IMG/VR virus record: IMGVR_UViG_3300042112_000169
Coordinates: 1 to 29,352 of that record
Strand: one strand, 5' to 3'
DNA from: a virus
DNA: 29,352 nucleotides
Shown here: positions 19,359 through 28,454 of the stretch, piece after piece
Numbering within the stretch: position 1 is the first letter of the stretch
Layout: each line of letters starts with the position of its first letter
The notes under the pieces: model-generated
What the model was told of the DNA's origin: nothing
What the model saw: the letters and a program-made list of their open reading frames with translations, nothing else
Databases searched by the model: none
Made by a program: the position numbers and the translations under genes

Positions 19359-20438
19359 TTAGGCGATTGCTCCACCCTTGGTGTTAATCACAACACGGGA
19401 TTCTCCAGTAATCATACCGAAGCCCCAAATTGCGTACCAAGCAAGACCATGCTCACGACCAAAGTCAATGACACCACCGTCACGGAGTTCTACTGGCAAT
19501 GCAATAGCGTGACCGAAAGCGTTGTCACCAATCATGATGGCGCTGTATGAAGTTGCTGTTGGAGCCTGTGCACCAGTTGTACCTGATACAAGGTCTGCAG
19601 GACCGCCGCCTGCAACAACTTGAGTTGTCTCAATGAACACTACGTCGTAGATACGACCAATTTCACCGAGCATGAAGTTGCCTGGGGCAGCATACTTAGT
19701 TACTTCAATGAATTCTGGCCAGTCACGAAGCGCACGGCTTTGTGATGGGTGAACGAAGCAAACATAAGTGTCGCCAAGACGTGGGATGTTCTGACCAGCA
19801 AGGATTTCAACTGCATCTTTAATAGCTGCAGGTGACAAGTAACCTGGACTGCTGTATGTACCTACGGTACCTGCATCGTATGGTGAAATTGTTGTACGAG
19901 CACCCGATTGAACGTTGCGACCAAACACGACGCTTGGTGGAACTGCTGCACCACCAGAGAATGGAACTGCATTCTGGTAGAGAGTGTTGCGAGCTTGAAT
20001 GTCCATTGACTGTGCCATGTGACGACCAAGCAAGCGGCTTGAAGATGCCATTACGTCATCAAACGATGCGTTGAGGAGAAGTTCAGTTACTGCAAGAGCC
20101 TGTCCTTGTTCACCAACCGTGATTTGAATCTGTGATGCTGAAAGAGCCACTGGCTCCATGCGTACACCTTCAGTCAAAGTTGCACCTACAGCCTCGTCTG
20201 TTGACAAGTTTGAATAGCGCATGAAGTTAATTGTCAAACCAGGCATTACACCAAGTTCTGTTTTCTTTACTGCGAACTGTTCAAAACGAAGAACCGGCAT
20301 TGCTTGGAACAAAATTTCTTTTGACCAAATCTGTTGAATTGCTGGTGAGAGTGTTGCATCACTTGAGTAGCCTGTAGTCGTTACTGACGTAAGACCTGCT
20401 CCTGTAATTGCGCCACCTTGTGGGCCTGGAATTGCCAT
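19359..20438 (-). CDS. Major capsid protein, N4-gp56 family type
   Basis: 359 aa. Features of this HK97-fold capsid family are LSPAIQQIWSKEILFQAMPVLRFEQF near 30-55, GLTINFMRYSNL, then helix and strand ending IQITVEQGQ-like (QITVGEQGQALAVTELLL), YVCFVHPSQSRALRDW at about 226-241, and GEIGRIYDVVFIETT. The C-terminus (HGLAWYAIWGFGMIT) is typical. Codon use looks richer in G/C at third positions than neighbouring genes, as for a highly expressed gene. AGGAGATAAATT precedes the ATG. Scaffold upstream, hairpin downstream. Confidence 0.94.
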   Translation of the reverse strand: MAIPGPQGGAITGAGLTSVTTTGYSSDATLSPAIQQIWSKEILFQAMPVLRFEQFAVKKTELGVMPGLTINFMRYSNLSTDEAVGATLTEGVRMEPVALSASQIQITVGEQGQALAVTELLLNASFDDVMASSSRLLGRHMAQSMDIQARNTLYQNAVPFSGGAAVPPSVVFGRNVQSGARTTISPYDAGTVGTYSSPGYLSPAAIKDAVEILAGQNIPRLGDTYVCFVHPSQSRALRDWPEFIEVTKYAAPGNFMLGEIGRIYDVVFIETTQVVAGGGPADLVSGTTGAQAPTATSYSAIMIGDNAFGHAIALPVELRDGGVIDFGREHGLAWYAIWGFGMITGESRVVINTKGGAIA

Positions 20439-20473: not shown

Positions 20474-21277
20474 TTAAAAACGACCCTTGTTGGATCGTGA
20501 ACTTAATAGCCTGTCTCTCATTTTAACATACTGGTCCATTGTCATGTTTCGGATGTCATCCGAGTTCAACGTTTGGTATTCCTGTTGGTTTTCCATTGGT
20601 CCAGACACTGGCGAAGTAACCGATACGCCTTTAAGTTGGCGTGGTTGCGTCGCTTGTTGGACACTTTGAAGTATAGCAGCACTACGTTGGCGCAAGATAT
20701 CTACTGAAGCGTCTACCTCTTCAATGGTGTTACCAGCGACAAGATCAATCAATTCTGGAATGATATTCTCTTGTTCCTCGTGAATCTTGCGCTGACGATA
20801 GGTTTCTAATTCGCGCAATTCGCGTTCTTTATCAAGCAATGCTTGCTGCGACTTGCGATCCTCTTCAATTGCCGCAAACCTAGCTTGCCATTCAGCGTCA
20901 ATGTTCTTAATTTTGGCATTGAACTCATCTTCGGTTTTGGCCAACAATTGCTTAGAGGTAAGTTCTTCAAACTCACGTTGTTTGCGGATTTCTTCCTCAG
21001 CACGGGCTTTTTCTTCAGCTTTTTTAATAGCTTCTTCACGGTCTTGAGCAAGTACTTTAAGTTGCTCTTCCATGGCCTTTGCTCGTGCATCGGCTTCTTC
21101 AAGACGCTTGTACATCTTGTCTTTTTCCTGTTTACGGATGTTTTCCACATCTGTTTCAGAAAAGATTTTACCCGTTGGGGTAACTTGATTACTTGGGGCT
21201 ACTTGTTGAGCCGCCTCATTAAACGCATCAACTGCAACTGCAGGGATGGTGATTTCATCTGTTTCTCGCTTTGCCAT
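20474..21277 (-). CDS. Capsid scaffolding protein
   Basis: 267 aa. A highly charged coiled coil runs from about 35 to 160, with repeated Glu/Lys/Ala heptads (RLEEADARAKAMEEQLK, EEAIKKAEEKARAEEEIRK), followed by less charged helical parts and a basic C-terminus ending MRDRLLSSRSNKGRF. Lack of fixed domains, a coiled-coil core and a basic tail just before the capsid gene are the marks of a phage scaffold. It has no protease-like motif, so it is not a fused protease-scaffold. Confidence 0.88.
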   Translation of the reverse strand: MAKRETDEITIPAVAVDAFNEAAQQVAPSNQVTPTGKIFSETDVENIRKQEKDKMYKRLEEADARAKAMEEQLKVLAQDREEAIKKAEEKARAEEEIRKQREFEELTSKQLLAKTEDEFNAKIKNIDAEWQARFAAIEEDRKSQQALLDKERELRELETYRQRKIHEEQENIIPELIDLVAGNTIEEVDASVDILRQRSAAILQSVQQATQPRQLKGVSVTSPVSGPMENQQEYQTLNSDDIRNMTMDQYVKMRDRLLSSRSNKGRF

Positions 21278-21328: not shown

Positions 21329-23023
21329 TTATTTGTCTTCATCAGGAATACGACGCTGTGCAAACCTTGCGCCATATGCCCGACTAGTCATTTTATTAAT
21401 TAGATCTTCCTCAATTGGTGGAATACCACCAACACCTGGAAGCGGTCCGCCCGTTCCCGAACTTCCCGCACTAGATACATTAGCACCTCCAGCAGAAGTC
21501 GTTTGCATACCAGAGGCATCAGGCAATAGGCCCGTAGCAAGCATCACTGCTTGACCAATCTGTGCACGTACCATATCAAGTGCACCTTGATCAATTGCAT
21601 CGTCCATAAGTTCATCAAAAATTTCAATCATCTTCTCATTCGGGAACTCTTCACCTAATGAACGAAGCGCACCTTTCTTAGACTCAATACCTAAGGCCAT
21701 CTTTGCTTGTGCTTCATTAAGTTTGATAAGAGCATCAACAGGAAGGGGTTCTGGCCAATGGATTGTTGTCTTATATGTATTTGGGTCCATTGGATCTAAT
21801 TGAGTTAGTTGATCTGCTTCCGGCATTGCGGATTGTGATGGGTCGTACATTAAAAGTTCTGGCATAAACACCGCCGCTGTTCTAATGATAATTTCATTAA
21901 GTTTCTCTAAACCATTAGTAAAGTGAACTTTCTTCATTTGATAACGGTTCATTAAAGGTTGATACTGAATTGCTAAAGCAACACCAGAAGTGTTAGATAC
22001 TGGTTGAAATTGTCCCAATGCTGTTTCTGGAACACCAGTAATTTCATGCATTGCTCTCTTTATCATCTGGATGTACTCAAGAGCTCCAGCCATTTCTCCA
22101 CGAGATTCAAGGTTAAATACTTGTGCATCCTTTGGCAAACCAGCCCAAACTTTCTTTGGACCTCGCTCAAGTTGGCTTGCTTTTGCACCAGTGATAATTG
22201 TTACGGGAGCAGCGTGATAGTTAATGATGTCTGAAACTTCAGTCATCTTTTCATTCAACTCACGGTTTAGTTGGATTACATCCCAGATGTCTGATTGACC
22301 CCAAGGTGATGAAGTGATTGTGATGTTTGGAATATGAACAATAGGAACTGTTCCAATTGGGTTTGGATATGAATCAATTAGCTCGTCGTTTACATATTGT
22401 TGAACTAATTCGTCGGTAAGGATTTCTGTAAAGGTGTAAACCTGACGAGTACCTTCTGGAGATGTACCCCAAAACCGATATTTAAGTTTAAACCGCAGCA
22501 AACGTTCACGATCATGTGGGTGATATTCAGGGAAACAGTGCGCTGGGTTAAGAGGCAAAATGCGAACACGTCCAGGGCGCATAACGCCAGCACCATCCGT
22601 GTACGGTTCATCATACGCAACTTTTACAAAACAATCTCCAGTAACACTGGCTAGTTGCCCCATCTGCCAAAGCAGATAATGCTTGTTGTTTTGATTATCC
22701 CAAATCTCGTGAAGAAGTCGTGGAATGATTGCTTGATTTTGTTCTGGAACTTTAAATTGAATTCCTTTACCAAAACAAAAATTGGTGATGAAGTCCGACA
22801 TTGTTCGGACATAGTTCATCGTTATGTTGTTGTCGCCCATCTCACGACGGTATGACCAGTGGTGTCCTAGATACCAAGCCCATGCAGCCGAATAGCGATT
22901 AAGGCGTGGGCCGTGAACTTCAAACTCTTCGTCGGCAAGTTCAACTAGTCCTAAAGGACTAATAGCAACTGTTAAGTCGCTAGATGCAGCCCTATAAGAC
23001 GGAGACCAAAAATCAATAGGCAT
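21329..23023 (-). CDS. Portal protein
   Basis: 564 aa. The N-terminal half has RYSAAWAWYLGHHW, NYVRTMSDFITNFCFGKGIQF and GDCFVKVAYDEPYTDG; the centre has PIVHIPNITITSSPWGQSDIW, then IQLNRELNEKMTEVSDIINY, the long stem helix motif of SPP1/HK97-type portals; later come ITGVPETALGQFQPVSNTSG and a helical crown, as usual. The C-terminus is Gly/Ser/Pro-rich with a last basic helix. It forms the dodecameric DNA channel at the head vertex. Its place before scaffold and capsid is canonical. Confidence 0.94.
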   Translation of the reverse strand: MPIDFWSPSYRAASSDLTVAISPLGLVELADEEFEVHGPRLNRYSAAWAWYLGHHWSYRREMGDNNITMNYVRTMSDFITNFCFGKGIQFKVPEQNQAIIPRLLHEIWDNQNNKHYLLWQMGQLASVTGDCFVKVAYDEPYTDGAGVMRPGRVRILPLNPAHCFPEYHPHDRERLLRFKLKYRFWGTSPEGTRQVYTFTEILTDELVQQYVNDELIDSYPNPIGTVPIVHIPNITITSSPWGQSDIWDVIQLNRELNEKMTEVSDIINYHAAPVTIITGAKASQLERGPKKVWAGLPKDAQVFNLESRGEMAGALEYIQMIKRAMHEITGVPETALGQFQPVSNTSGVALAIQYQPLMNRYQMKKVHFTNGLEKLNEIIIRTAAVFMPELLMYDPSQSAMPEADQLTQLDPMDPNTYKTTIHWPEPLPVDALIKLNEAQAKMALGIESKKGALRSLGEEFPNEKMIEIFDELMDDAIDQGALDMVRAQIGQAVMLATGLLPDASGMQTTSAGGANVSSAGSSGTGGPLPGVGGIPPIEEDLINKMTSRAYGARFAQRRIPDEDK

Positions 23024-23053: not shown

Positions 23054-23305
23054 TTACTTCTTTTTTGCTGGGGCTTTTTTGGCAACAGGCTTTGCTGGGG
23101 CTGCGGCTACGGCTTTAGTAGCCAAGTCAATCAACATGGTTGTGTTTTTGTCACCGATTTTAGTTGAAATAAATGACAAAGCAAGCGCTGCTACTGGAAC
23201 ACAGGCAGCTACTACTTCTGCTGAAACGTCGTATTTTGTGCCGACATATGTCAACAAGCCTAACAAGGCTCCTTTTGCTGTTGCGTCTACATGAGCTGTT
23301 TTCAT
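23054..23305 (-). CDS. Small membrane protein with Lys/Ala/Pro-rich tail (83 aa)
   Basis: Residues 11-26 are weakly hydrophobic and 31-47 (VVAACVPVAALALSFIS) are a clear membrane segment. The last 16 residues are Lys/Ala/Pro-rich (AAPAKPVAKKAPAKKK), like histone-H1-type or mycobacterial HupB-type tails. AGGAGTAATACC precedes the ATG. It lies between the proteasome-like protease and the portal. A holin or membrane anchor is possible, and the tail could touch DNA or membrane phospholipids. I do not recognise a family. Confidence 0.68.
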   Translation of the reverse strand: MKTAHVDATAKGALLGLLTYVGTKYDVSAEVVAACVPVAALALSFISTKIGDKNTTMLIDLATKAVAAAPAKPVAKKAPAKKK

Positions 23306-23333: not shown

Positions 23334-23969
23334 TTATACAGGTTTACGCGATTTACTGCGCACTTCGTATTCTTGCACAAAGGTGTGATAAGGCGCACCC
23401 GTGTATGGGTCAAACTTAGCAGAGATTGCAATGGCTTTTATAGCGTTGGATTTTGCTTGGTTTACCGTCTGCTTTTTATTGTGCACTAAAGCTTGTAATG
23501 CCCCAAGAGCGTATGACGAACCAGTGCCAATTGCGTAAAGTCCTGTAAAGTCGGAATACCACGAATAATCCCCATCAATTAAGTACAGAGTTCCGTTGAT
23601 TGCCAAAAGAATAGTTGACCCTTGCTCAGCCATATGTTCTTTATCATCACGATCAGGAACTGAGTATCCCTGAGAATCAAAACATTCTCTTAGTGCCGGA
23701 ATGAATTTGCTAGTAATAAACTGATCTAGTTTTTTACCTTTAGTGTTGGGTGTTGGCGTAGGTGGTTGAAATACATGTTGAAGAATATTGATTGCTCTAA
23801 GGTCGCCAGCAGTTGCCAATAAGTATTTTCCATTGACAGCCACTTTTCCAGAACCTTCACGCAAAGTTCCTATTTGAGATATCAATCCATCAGAGTAAGA
23901 ATCACTAATACGAGAGTCAGCACAAATTACTGAGAACCCATCTCCTTGAATAGCAATAATTGTTGTCAT
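23334..23969 (-). CDS. Proteasome-beta/HslV-like Ntn hydrolase
   Basis: 211 aa from an ATG at 23969 (the longer upstream start would overlap the phosphoesterase and bury the catalytic Thr). Met is followed at once by Thr-Thr-Ile-Ile, so Met removal would expose Thr1 without a propeptide. Numbered from Thr1, the proteasome set is present: D17 in ADSR with R19, K41 aligning with K33 of classic beta subunits, AGD at 53-55, G147-T-G-S150 before a helix SYALGAL, and D186/T189/G190 aligning with D166/S169/G170. A Pro/Thr-rich insert lies at 67-75. The family forms self-compartmentalising ring proteases. No alpha subunit or unfoldase is in the window. It starts 5 bases after the phosphoesterase stop. 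Confidence 0.9.
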   Translation of the reverse strand: MTTIIAIQGDGFSVICADSRISDSYSDGLISQIGTLREGSGKVAVNGKYLLATAGDLRAINILQHVFQPPTPTPNTKGKKLDQFITSKFIPALRECFDSQGYSVPDRDDKEHMAEQGSTILLAINGTLYLIDGDYSWYSDFTGLYAIGTGSSYALGALQALVHNKKQTVNQAKSNAIKAIAISAKFDPYTGAPYHTFVQEYEVRSKSRKPV

Positions 23970-23974
23970 GTGTT

Positions 23975-25144
23975 TTAAGCACTGTACTCTTTGCCGTGGT
24001 ACATTGCCCAACCATCGTAAATTGGAATTACTTCGTAAGCAAACTTATGTGCTCCAGTGTCTTCATAAGTAACTACACCAAGACCTTGCTGCCAGTTCTC
24101 ATACCGAACCAACGGACGCCCATCTAAATCTACACCACCTTTAGTAGAAGGGATAGCACCATCAATGCGAGCGAGACAACCAGGCGACGCCGCCATGATT
24201 GTGCGAGGACCGTCAAAGTCTTCTCTAGTCTTATATGCAGTTTCAATCCTGTGAATGTGTCCATAAATTACCGATGTCTTTTCTTGGTTGAGATATACGT
24301 GAGCAGTTGAACCACTTGACTTAACTCTATCTCCATGAATAACACGAAGTTTTTCATTAATCCAAAAATCTGAAGCTGGATACCCTGGTCGGTACTCAAC
24401 ACCAAATTCATCCATTCGGCAAAGATATGGAACACTCAATACGGGCCAAGATTCTGGGATATTTCCTTTTCGCAACCCATAAGCAGCGCCAGCGTTAGTA
24501 AGTAAATATTTAGGCATTCTTTCTTCGTGGTTACCTGCTAACCAAACAATTTGCGCGTTTGGAGCAGCGTTTCGCATCTCTGCACAAAAAGCAGTTGCTC
24601 TGTCAATTGATGCCTGTGTTGTTTGTGCATACGCTGGGTATGTAAGATACTTTCCCATTTCTGGTAAATCTAAATTGTCACCAACACAAACAATTACTTC
24701 TGGCTTTACTGTTTTGATTATTGCCAATGAAACAGAGATTGCTTTTTCGTCATGGGTTGCTTCTAATTCTCCAGACCTACCACGATAGAAACCTATTTGT
24801 AAATCAGGAACAACAACACACGTTTTAAAACCAGTAACTGGTTTAGACGACGTTTTGTTTACAGGAATTTTAAAAGATGGACCTTGTTTAACCAACGGCC
24901 ACTCTGGACCAACCTCCCATCTAGGAGACAGTTGAACAACAACTGTTTCTTGGGTTTGTGGTTCTCCTTCTTTGTCTTTAGAAAAACGTTGTGTAACAGT
25001 AACTTTCTTAAGGTCACCTATCTCCGATACATCAATGTCTTTTTCCAGTAACACGTCTGCCAAAGAACTAAGCAATTTATCTTTGCGTTGTTTCTTTTCT
25101 TGTTCAGACGTGATGTTATTTAATTTGCTTTGCAAATTACTCAT
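23975..25144 (-). CDS. Calcineurin-like metallophosphoesterase
   Basis: 389 aa. The order of metal motifs is complete: D114 in VVVPDLQIG (His of the usual DxH replaced by Gln116), GDNLD at 155-159, GNHE at 204-207, HGD at 270-272 and GHIH at 295-298. Residues 1-90 are a charged helical and beta extension with no match. The family cuts phosphate esters in DNA, RNA or nucleotides. Its tight coupling (ATGA with the HTH gene; 5-base gap to the protease gene) puts it in an accessory block between lysis and head genes. Loss of the first His is common in phage members and can favour phosphodiester or cyclic nucleotide substrates. Confidence 0.9.
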   Translation of the reverse strand: MSNLQSKLNNITSEQEKKQRKDKLLSSLADVLLEKDIDVSEIGDLKKVTVTQRFSKDKEGEPQTQETVVVQLSPRWEVGPEWPLVKQGPSFKIPVNKTSSKPVTGFKTCVVVPDLQIGFYRGRSGELEATHDEKAISVSLAIIKTVKPEVIVCVGDNLDLPEMGKYLTYPAYAQTTQASIDRATAFCAEMRNAAPNAQIVWLAGNHEERMPKYLLTNAGAAYGLRKGNIPESWPVLSVPYLCRMDEFGVEYRPGYPASDFWINEKLRVIHGDRVKSSGSTAHVYLNQEKTSVIYGHIHRIETAYKTREDFDGPRTIMAASPGCLARIDGAIPSTKGGVDLDGRPLVRYENWQQGLGVVTYEDTGAHKFAYEVIPIYDGWAMYHGKEYSA

Positions 25145-26881: not shown

Positions 26882-27916
26882 TTACAACTGCTTACGAGAA
26901 GGTTTGCGGCTAAGGGAAACATTTTGTCCAGGTATGTTTTCACGTATAAAACCGTGTTCGTTAGTGTGTGGGTTTATTATTAATCCTTTAGAATAATGAC
27001 CACGTTTCTTTTCAGCAAAAACACCAAAAGATGCTTTTTCAGGATCTGCCCATCTAGCGTCATCACGATCTGCATCAAAAGAAGGTGCTGTAACCTCTGC
27101 TCCTGTTTTTAAGTCTTTAAATGTCGTATATGGGTAAACATGAGCAGGACCCCTTGATCTATCAACTGGGAAATACACATTCCTATTTTGTTTTATAAGT
27201 TCGGCAACACGACCTGCTGTAGTTAATTCGCTTGCGCTGTGGGCTATATGGTGGTGTGCATAAACAGGATCTGGTTCAGGAACTCCACGTACATCACGCA
27301 TATTTTCTTTTGAATATTCGTTAAAAGTCATTCCTGGAAGATGCCTAATTTCTTTAGGTAAATCCAAACCCTTTGGAGCTTCCGCATATTGACCAATAAT
27401 AATTGGAGCAACTTTTAACCTATGAAAAGCTGTGTCCGAAATTGTATTTAAACGTGCTACGGGGTGTAAACCTAAAGCATACGCCTTTTCACTATGTTGG
27501 CTTAATTCATCTCTGAGAGTTGCTAAAAACAAATCTGGATGCAAAACGCCAAATTTTGTACGATTAATCTGTGCTGCCTGTTGATCTGGTCCAGACATTT
27601 GATGAGTGTCATTAATGCAGTTATTGCGACAACCCGCGGTTGAACAAGAACCGCAGGTATCTGTAACTCCAGAAGACCTAGCTGGAGATAAATTCATGCT
27701 GGCTTGGTAAGACAAACGAGCCATTGGGTTTGTAGAAGTCATGTTTTTTTTAATTTTTGTATTACTTTTAGGAGATGTTAATAGTGTCAAACCAGGATTT
27801 CTTCCTTGATCTATTAAGAATTTGCTGAATTGAGCACCCCCTCTTCCAACAGGTATCCTGTTTAAATCAGCTTCACTTACTTGGTCTAATTCATAAAAAA
27901 ATGGTGTTTCTGCCAT
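26882..27916 (-). CDS. GP88-like Cys-cluster protein
   Basis: 344 aa from an ATG at 27916, preceded by GGGAG at eight bases; an upstream ATG inside the previous gene is rejected. A CX2CX4CX3C cluster lies at C88, C91, C96 and C100, followed by a helix with HPDLFLATLRDEL (about 126-138), RLNTISD at 155-161, MTFNEYSKEN at 196-205 and HIAHSASEL at 223-231. This order recalls the phage GP88 family, of unknown activity, which may hold an Fe-S or zinc centre in a barrel-like fold. The C-terminal 80 residues are charged. Recognition is from motif order only. Confidence 0.62.
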   Translation of the reverse strand: MAETPFFYELDQVSEADLNRIPVGRGGAQFSKFLIDQGRNPGLTLLTSPKSNTKIKKNMTSTNPMARLSYQASMNLSPARSSGVTDTCGSCSTAGCRNNCINDTHQMSGPDQQAAQINRTKFGVLHPDLFLATLRDELSQHSEKAYALGLHPVARLNTISDTAFHRLKVAPIIIGQYAEAPKGLDLPKEIRHLPGMTFNEYSKENMRDVRGVPEPDPVYAHHHIAHSASELTTAGRVAELIKQNRNVYFPVDRSRGPAHVYPYTTFKDLKTGAEVTAPSFDADRDDARWADPEKASFGVFAEKKRGHYSKGLIINPHTNEHGFIRENIPGQNVSLSRKPSRKQL

Positions 27917-27920
27917 GTTG

Positions 27921-28454
27921 TTAACTCCCGTAGTCGTATTTGTCTTTGCGACCTTTTTCAACGTGCAATGCACGCCTACGAAGATCTGTTTCTTTGCTCA
28001 AGCGTCCCTCTTCCTCTGGCCTCTCAACATCACGAACACCAGCATCTAGATGCGGAGATTGTGTTCCAAACGCAGAGTCAACTGGGTCCGCAGGTTCTTC
28101 TGAGAACTGTTGGTTGGAAAGAGCAGTTGGTTGCAAACCAGAACCTGCTAAGTTCTTTGGCATGGCGTAACCCGTTGGTTGATAAACAGAAACTCCCAAT
28201 GTATTTTTTAAATACGAGTTAAGAACAAACGGGTGTCGTCGTTCTCTTAATTCAGCAGCTGCTGGTGGGGTGCGCAAAACAAGAGTTTGAAATATACCTT
28301 TTCTGCTCTTGTAACCTCGTGGACTAAACGCACCTACAGGACTTAGCCCGTAGGTTTGCGCAATACTTTCAGATAGCTCTTGCGTTCCTGTGAGACCGCT
28401 GTCTCCAGATTCAAGACCGCCGGACTCAGATGCGGAAGCTGTTCCGCCTTCCAT
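27921..28454 (-). CDS. Unknown late-region protein (177 aa)
   Basis: No family recognised. Residues 1-35 are Gly/Ser/Glu-rich and disordered; the middle has RTPPAAAELRERRHPFVLNSY and VSVYQPTGYAMPKNLAG; the C-terminal third is very charged (RRRALHVEKGRKDKYDYGS). Low order and a basic end suggest a nucleic-acid-associated or scaffolding protein. It starts two bases after the preceding gene's stop and is followed by the GP88-like gene. Confidence 0.65.
   Translation of the reverse strand: MEGGTASASESGGLESGDSGLTGTQELSESIAQTYGLSPVGAFSPRGYKSRKGIFQTLVLRTPPAAAELRERRHPFVLNSYLKNTLGVSVYQPTGYAMPKNLAGSGLQPTALSNQQFSEEPADPVDSAFGTQSPHLDAGVRDVERPEEEGRLSKETDLRRRALHVEKGRKDKYDYGS

Follow-up and report, generated by a model that had tools for sequence, protein, structure and literature searches.

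A proteasome-like (BPH/HslV-like) threonine peptidase encoded beside the portal gene of phages with WhiB genes, and optional among relatives with the same head block

Proteasome homologues are already known from phages (Fuchs et al., 2021; PHROG 1040). One of them, PPH, is a protein of about 140 residues without helix H2 that occurs in phages and their hosts (Fuchs et al., 2021, PMC8665760). Another, AAH, is a Group I homologue present in alpha-proteobacteria, Actinobacteria and many phages, although an Actinobacteria-specific phage with AAH could not be found (Fuchs, Alva and Lupas, 2021, PMC8665760). The papers that we found contain only annotated phages with the family, and none of them is a functional study of a phage member. 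One annotated example is the PHROG 1040 member of phage DSL-LC01 (OQ999401), named 'ATP-dependent protease subunit'. Here we describe a homologue from the virus record IMGVR_UViG_3300042112_000169, analyzed over its 29,352 nucleotides (hereafter, the window). The window protease and the DSL-LC01 protein are 44% identical; the DSL-LC01 copy lies about 10 kb from its portal gene, beside a WhiB gene, whereas the window copy lies beside the portal gene.

The gene occupies positions 23334-23969, where an earlier sequence-only reading had placed it, on the minus strand, with its ATG at 23969, and encodes a BPH/HslV-like threonine peptidase of 211 amino acids followed by a stop. Its N-terminal sequence, MTTIIAIQGDGFSVICADSR, begins with Met-Thr-Thr and lacks a propeptide. 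A longer, TTG-started frame overlaps the metallophosphoesterase gene, whose stop is 5 nt before the protease ATG. Because of this upstream stop, and because the aligned relatives share the same [M/V]TT start, no conserved propeptide is visible. Counted from the threonine, the protein has T1, T2, D17, K41, GTGS at 147-150, D186, T189 and G190, that is, every residue that had been listed from the sequence alone; K41 is the K33-equivalent in the alignment of the relatives' profile to BPH. On the minus strand, the codon of the nucleophile Thr1 (residue 2 when Met is 1) is at 23964-23966, that of Asp17 (residue 18) at 23916-23918, and that of the Lys33-equivalent (residue 42), aligned with the BPH lysine, at 23844-23846. 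The GTGS motif (residues 148-151) is encoded at 23517-23528, and the D-P-Y-T-G stretch with the D/T/G set (residues 187-191) at 23397-23411. The loop after helix H2 (residues 100-118; 23616-23672, minus strand) takes the position of the 'pore loop' of BPH and HslV, a meaning taken from PMC8665760. It consists of 19 residues with a net charge of -3, being only mildly acidic, and is modeled with low confidence by AlphaFold2.

Profile and structure comparisons agree on the family, and the profile matches far exceed chance. The window protease matches Pfam PF00227 (Proteasome; E 2e-7, 31.3 bits against a gathering cut-off of 22.4) and PHROG 1040, 'peptidase HslV family' (E 3e-24), and the best PDB match of a profile built from 28 relatives is BPH 5ovu (E 1.5e-13, profile positions 2-192). 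The AlphaFold2 monomer model (mean pLDDT 85.6, pTM 0.82) shows an Ntn strand core with helices H1-H4, the long H2 spanning residues 78-99. In a Foldseek search against the PDB, BPH 5ovs ranks first (E 4e-11, TM 0.69/0.78, the latter by target length), followed by HslV and then by proteasome subunits and Anbu, with Anbu 5lox at rank 40; the nearest viral model, 42% identical, comes from an uncultured phage and already bears the name HslV peptidase subunit. Thus, the gathering score, the Thr1/Asp17/Lys33 set and the Ntn fold with H1-H4 all place the protein in PF00227, and the original proposal that the phage encodes a proteasome-like protease with its catalytic set complete stands on both the profile matches and the predicted monomer.

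The closest described system is BPH (PDB 5ovs, 5ovt, 5ovu), which provides the best profile and fold match and shares with the window protease a mature TT N-terminus, the Thr/Asp/Lys set, four helices, a loop after H2 and the lack of a known unfoldase. The two proteins are only about 20% identical in the structural alignment, and the window protease is phage-borne. BPH has a long, highly acidic pore loop and forms a double heptameric ring; the loop of the window protease has 19 residues and is mildly acidic, and a ring is only predicted for it. HslV (ClpQ) is similar in fold, MTT start, Thr/Asp/Lys set and G-S/T-G motif, but has a shorter loop after H2. A true HslV was rejected: the NCBIfam HslV equivalog models give 27.2 bits against a cut-off of 137 and 25.6 against 157.75, and no HslU is present in the records of the window's own phage group (group 1). 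The search of these records for an HslU/Clp-type AAA_2 ATPase leaves room for an HslU supplied by the host. A full 20S proteasome with an alpha subunit was rejected as well, since each record has one credible PF00227 place; the 20S beta equivalog models are also far from reached (21 against 224 bits and 13.6 against 191.9). Both negatives agree with the sequence-only reading, which had seen neither an alpha subunit nor an unfoldase. PPH, although also a phage-borne proteasome-like protein, was rejected because the window protease has 211 residues and a long H2, and Anbu because the model lacks a helix after the last strand, where Anbu has the long C-terminal helix H5. The nearest bacterial homologues are on rhizobial, Paraburkholderia and Streptomyces plasmids, a distribution that resembles that of AAH; the likeness is one of distribution. 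These plasmid proteins start with MTC or MTV, and the four tested form a clade separate from the MTT actinophage clade. The bacterial carriers of AAH thus resemble those of the homologues found here; no actinobacterial phage with AAH was found by Fuchs et al. (2021, PMC8665760).

The active site is strictly conserved. The first 81 loci, almost all of the head-block type, contributed 46 distinct sequences to the group-1 alignment, 44-100% identical to the window protease. T2, D18 and K42 (Met=1) never vary in these 46, and only one truncated row departs from D187, T190 and G191; G148 and G150 of the GTGS motif are invariant as well. In a second phage group, represented by 54 distinct sequences, the corresponding Thr, Asp and Lys do not vary either. 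Thus, the loss of the catalytic Thr or Asp in relatives, which would have counted against the enzyme, was seen in neither group. Pairwise dN/dS of the protease is 0.009-0.06, close to that of the portal in the same close pairs (0.011-0.024), most values for the capsid, scaffold, sheath and endolysin being higher; all are simple pairwise estimates, some distant pairs being saturated. Judging by these substitution patterns, the gene looks maintained as an enzyme rather than decaying.

The gene lies in a head-gene block, all on the minus strand. Its constant upstream neighbour, found in carriers and non-carriers of the protease alike, encodes a metallophosphoesterase (23975-25144; PHROG 20266, E 8e-83). 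The protease gene is followed by an 83-aa gene (23054-23305), the SPP1 gp6-like portal gene (21329-23023; PF05133, E 3e-32; PHROG 64), a gene for a probable scaffold protein of 267 aa (20474-21277), assigned by position and coiled composition and matching no family, and the gene for the major capsid protein of the N4-gp56 family (19359-20438; TIGR04387, E 6e-36, over the cut-off; PHROG 1357). The order phosphoesterase, protease, 83-aa gene, portal, scaffold, capsid is conserved in nearly all of 80 IMG/VR loci, and the protease family is present in hundreds of IMG/VR contigs. The neighbourhood is therefore as had been noted from the sequence alone, and so is the lack of a visible serine or ClpP-like prohead protease: ten records of relatives (64-216 kb) contain no S78 or ClpP protease, and eight records gave a single sub-cut-off S49 match, the search covering these three families, so that S77 (T4 gp21) is not excluded.

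Comparison of related loci demonstrates that the protease is optional. In a portal-anchored search restricted to loci with enough upstream sequence, it is present in 128 and absent from 10; some contigs are counted twice here, and removal of identical portals leaves 57 against 7 distinct portals. In the loci without the protease, the phosphoesterase and portal genes are intact, the portals are 79-80% and the capsids 77-85% identical to those of the window, and the scaffold length is unchanged. The protease slot is filled by a 95-aa ORF (phrog_25889) in 12 loci, all of which lack the protease, and by another small ORF in L157; examples of the former are L134 (9337-9621) and L138 (8677-8961), in addition to ten other group-1 loci. 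A profile search of six frames found no copy elsewhere in ten non-carrier loci, and no homologue is present in six whole non-carrier records, including those of 94.5 and 99 kb, for which the longest group-1 carrier records (97-98 kb) are the comparison; all records are linear according to IMG/VR and may be incomplete. The portal tree requires four changes between presence and absence, at least three of which are forced by well-supported branches. These comparisons make it more likely that the gene is not needed for head building and that the slot between the metallophosphoesterase and the portal is swappable. In the roughly one relative in ten that lacks the gene, its absence might go together with a different host, or with an altered substrate other than the portal, capsid and scaffold compared.

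A second example of portal-side placement is provided by a group of phages with the 39-kb type record OX376640, which has a WhiB-like gene. Their protease is 34-39% identical to that of the window and directly follows the portal gene in 78 of 79 loci. The portal best matches a PHROG different from that of the window portal, and the capsid matches the PHROG of the window capsid (1357). The gene is optional there too: a portal-anchored scan gave 64 loci with and 9 without it. In a tree of 37 homologues, in which long branches make some joins unsure, groups 1 and 2 form two distinct clades, both nested in a larger, well-supported one (100/99) together with the proteins of DSL-LC01, Microbacterium phage Pumpernickel, Arthrobacter phage Pitbull and two large phages, whose genes, as far as the flanking sequence could be read, lie apart from head genes. 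Other homologues sit among nucleotide-metabolism, WhiB or small early-type genes. Because the two groups are separate clades, with the protease on opposite sides of the portal, among copies off the head genes, the tree suggests that portal adjacency was probably gained twice, upstream in one lineage and downstream in the other. The linkage to the portal, which the sequence-only reading proposed to check, is therefore real in two lineages, but the gene is optional in both and several other phages carry it away from head genes. A further locus, L159 (JAURLY010000091.1), contains the phosphoesterase and protease genes as a pair, and the next 10 kb encode no recognisable portal of the window type; because the pair is kept there, the phosphoesterase may be the older neighbour of the protease in the window's group, to judge from gene order.

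The hosts are indicated by WhiB genes (PF02467), present in all ten large records tested, with Corynebacterium the sole positive among the controls. This gene content indicates actinobacterial hosts, and the window virus would be one of freshwater actinobacteria. A bacterial-genome scan returned a single match, on the phage-like contig L159, which is titled Gammaproteobacteria MAG. This contig carries an endolysin, a holin, the phosphoesterase, the protease and a WhiB-like ORF, and is probably mis-binned. A wider viral scan with the DSL-LC01 protein gave two relatives only.

Overall, the family is widespread among phages with WhiB genes and strongly constrained by purifying selection; it lies portal-side in two lineages, yet is optional. 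With somewhat better than even confidence, we favour an accessory, probably ring-forming, unfoldase-independent threonine peptidase that acts in the infected cell and not in head building. The reading starts from what was computed, namely the family, fold, catalytic set, purifying selection, absence with the same head block and repeated portal-side placement; from these we infer Met processing, ring formation, activity, timing and substrates. Methionine aminopeptidase is established to remove Met from Met-Thr starts, and the host enzyme would thus expose Thr1. By analogy with BPH and HslV and given the fold, the subunits may then assemble into a self-compartmentalised ring, which, having no dedicated phage unfoldase, would cut peptides as well as unfolded or damaged proteins inside the infected cell. 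Such cleavage might help in the turnover of host or defence proteins and in amino-acid supply. The weak acidity of the loop after H2 (-3) speaks against this account. The gene lies among late genes, in a swappable metallophosphoesterase-portal slot, and would be dispensable for the head. Among the roles offered by the sequence-only reading, degradation of host or defence proteins comes closest to this one.

A more specialized scenario is a counter-defence protease directed against one bacterial immunity protein, the slot exchanging alternative anti-defence genes. In each of the loci examined, the slot contains the protease or a different small ORF but not the two together, which is the usual pattern of swappable accessory genes, and its at least three presence changes on the portal tree fit the same pattern. 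Nevertheless, PADLOC gave no match for the window protease as a defence-system protein, no known anti-defence neighbour and no specificity feature were identified, and the strong conservation is unlike the fast change often seen in arms-race genes, so we regard this scenario as unlikely.

Alternatively, the protease could be packaged in the virion and enter the host together with the DNA, to attack host or defence proteins early in infection, its place by the portal reflecting packaging into the head. Recurrent adjacency on opposite sides of the portal in two lineages is consistent with this, as is the optional nature of the gene for head building; a role in the virion might also explain the portal-side placement together with the very low dN/dS. 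In group 1, the C-terminus is a conserved basic tail (mostly R/K-R-K-P/T/K-V; 23334-23366 in the window), a candidate interaction tag. However, the tail is missing from the second group and the large phages, and other carriers hold the gene far from head genes, which makes virion packaging quite unlikely. To the stronger version, in which two lineages independently put the protease by the portal to have it packaged with the portal vertex and injected as a compartmentalised protease against host or defence proteins, we give only a slim chance.

Head maturation or scaffold removal had been suggested from the gene's position: the peptidase would enter the procapsid and cut scaffold, capsid or portal in place of a prohead protease of the S78 or ClpP fold. 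The adjacency to portal, scaffold and capsid in most group-1 loci and to the portal in the second group, the lack of another recognised prohead protease (S78, ClpP, S49) and the low, portal-like dN/dS speak for it. However, relatives with the same head proteins lack the gene, and the S78, ClpP and S49 searches recognise no prohead protease in these non-carriers either. Moreover, no compensating change accompanies the absence: in a column-by-column comparison, carriers and non-carriers are not set apart by any position of the portal, capsid or scaffold, and the two sets overlap in the lengths of these proteins or differ by a few residues. Related copies in other phages are away from head genes. 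A prohead protease need not be required at all, because P22, SPP1 and other phages that have a separate scaffold release it with no such enzyme. Head maturation was the one rival tested here; the sequence comparisons show a clear negative tendency, so that it is not supported and appears distinctly unlikely. The natural pairs of carriers and non-carriers with near-identical head genes argue against it and make the role of the protease directly testable.

Finally, a subunit that joins or poisons the host 20S proteasome belongs to the same superfamily and would find its target in many Actinobacteria, which possess a 20S proteasome, but this is very improbable because the 20S beta models are missed by such a wide margin (13.6 against 191.9 bits), the best relatives are the homomeric BPH and HslV, and strict conservation of the active site is more in keeping with an enzyme than with a blocker.

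Several observations concern the surroundings of the homologues. A partner AAA+ ATPase was considered and rejected: the head-block phages yielded neither the AAA gene that lies 9 kb upstream of the protease in L074 and L080 nor the ClpA/B-type ATPase of the L080 phage. That 216-kb phage encodes a 475-aa AAA+ ATPase (L332, 1182-2609), similar by eye to the second ATPase domain of ClpA/ClpB and not found in its 171-kb relative. In the second group, a 1764-aa protein without a PHROG match, possibly an internal virion protein, is encoded just downstream of the portal and protease (L246, 8727-14021). DSL-LC01 (L083, 20715-20954) and L159 (7657-8085) both have a WhiB-type gene a short way downstream of the protease. 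In the late region of the window, the GP88-like gene at 26882-27973 has only 24-30% identity to its counterpart in many relatives in which the genes on either side exceed 85%, and is thus a swapped gene.
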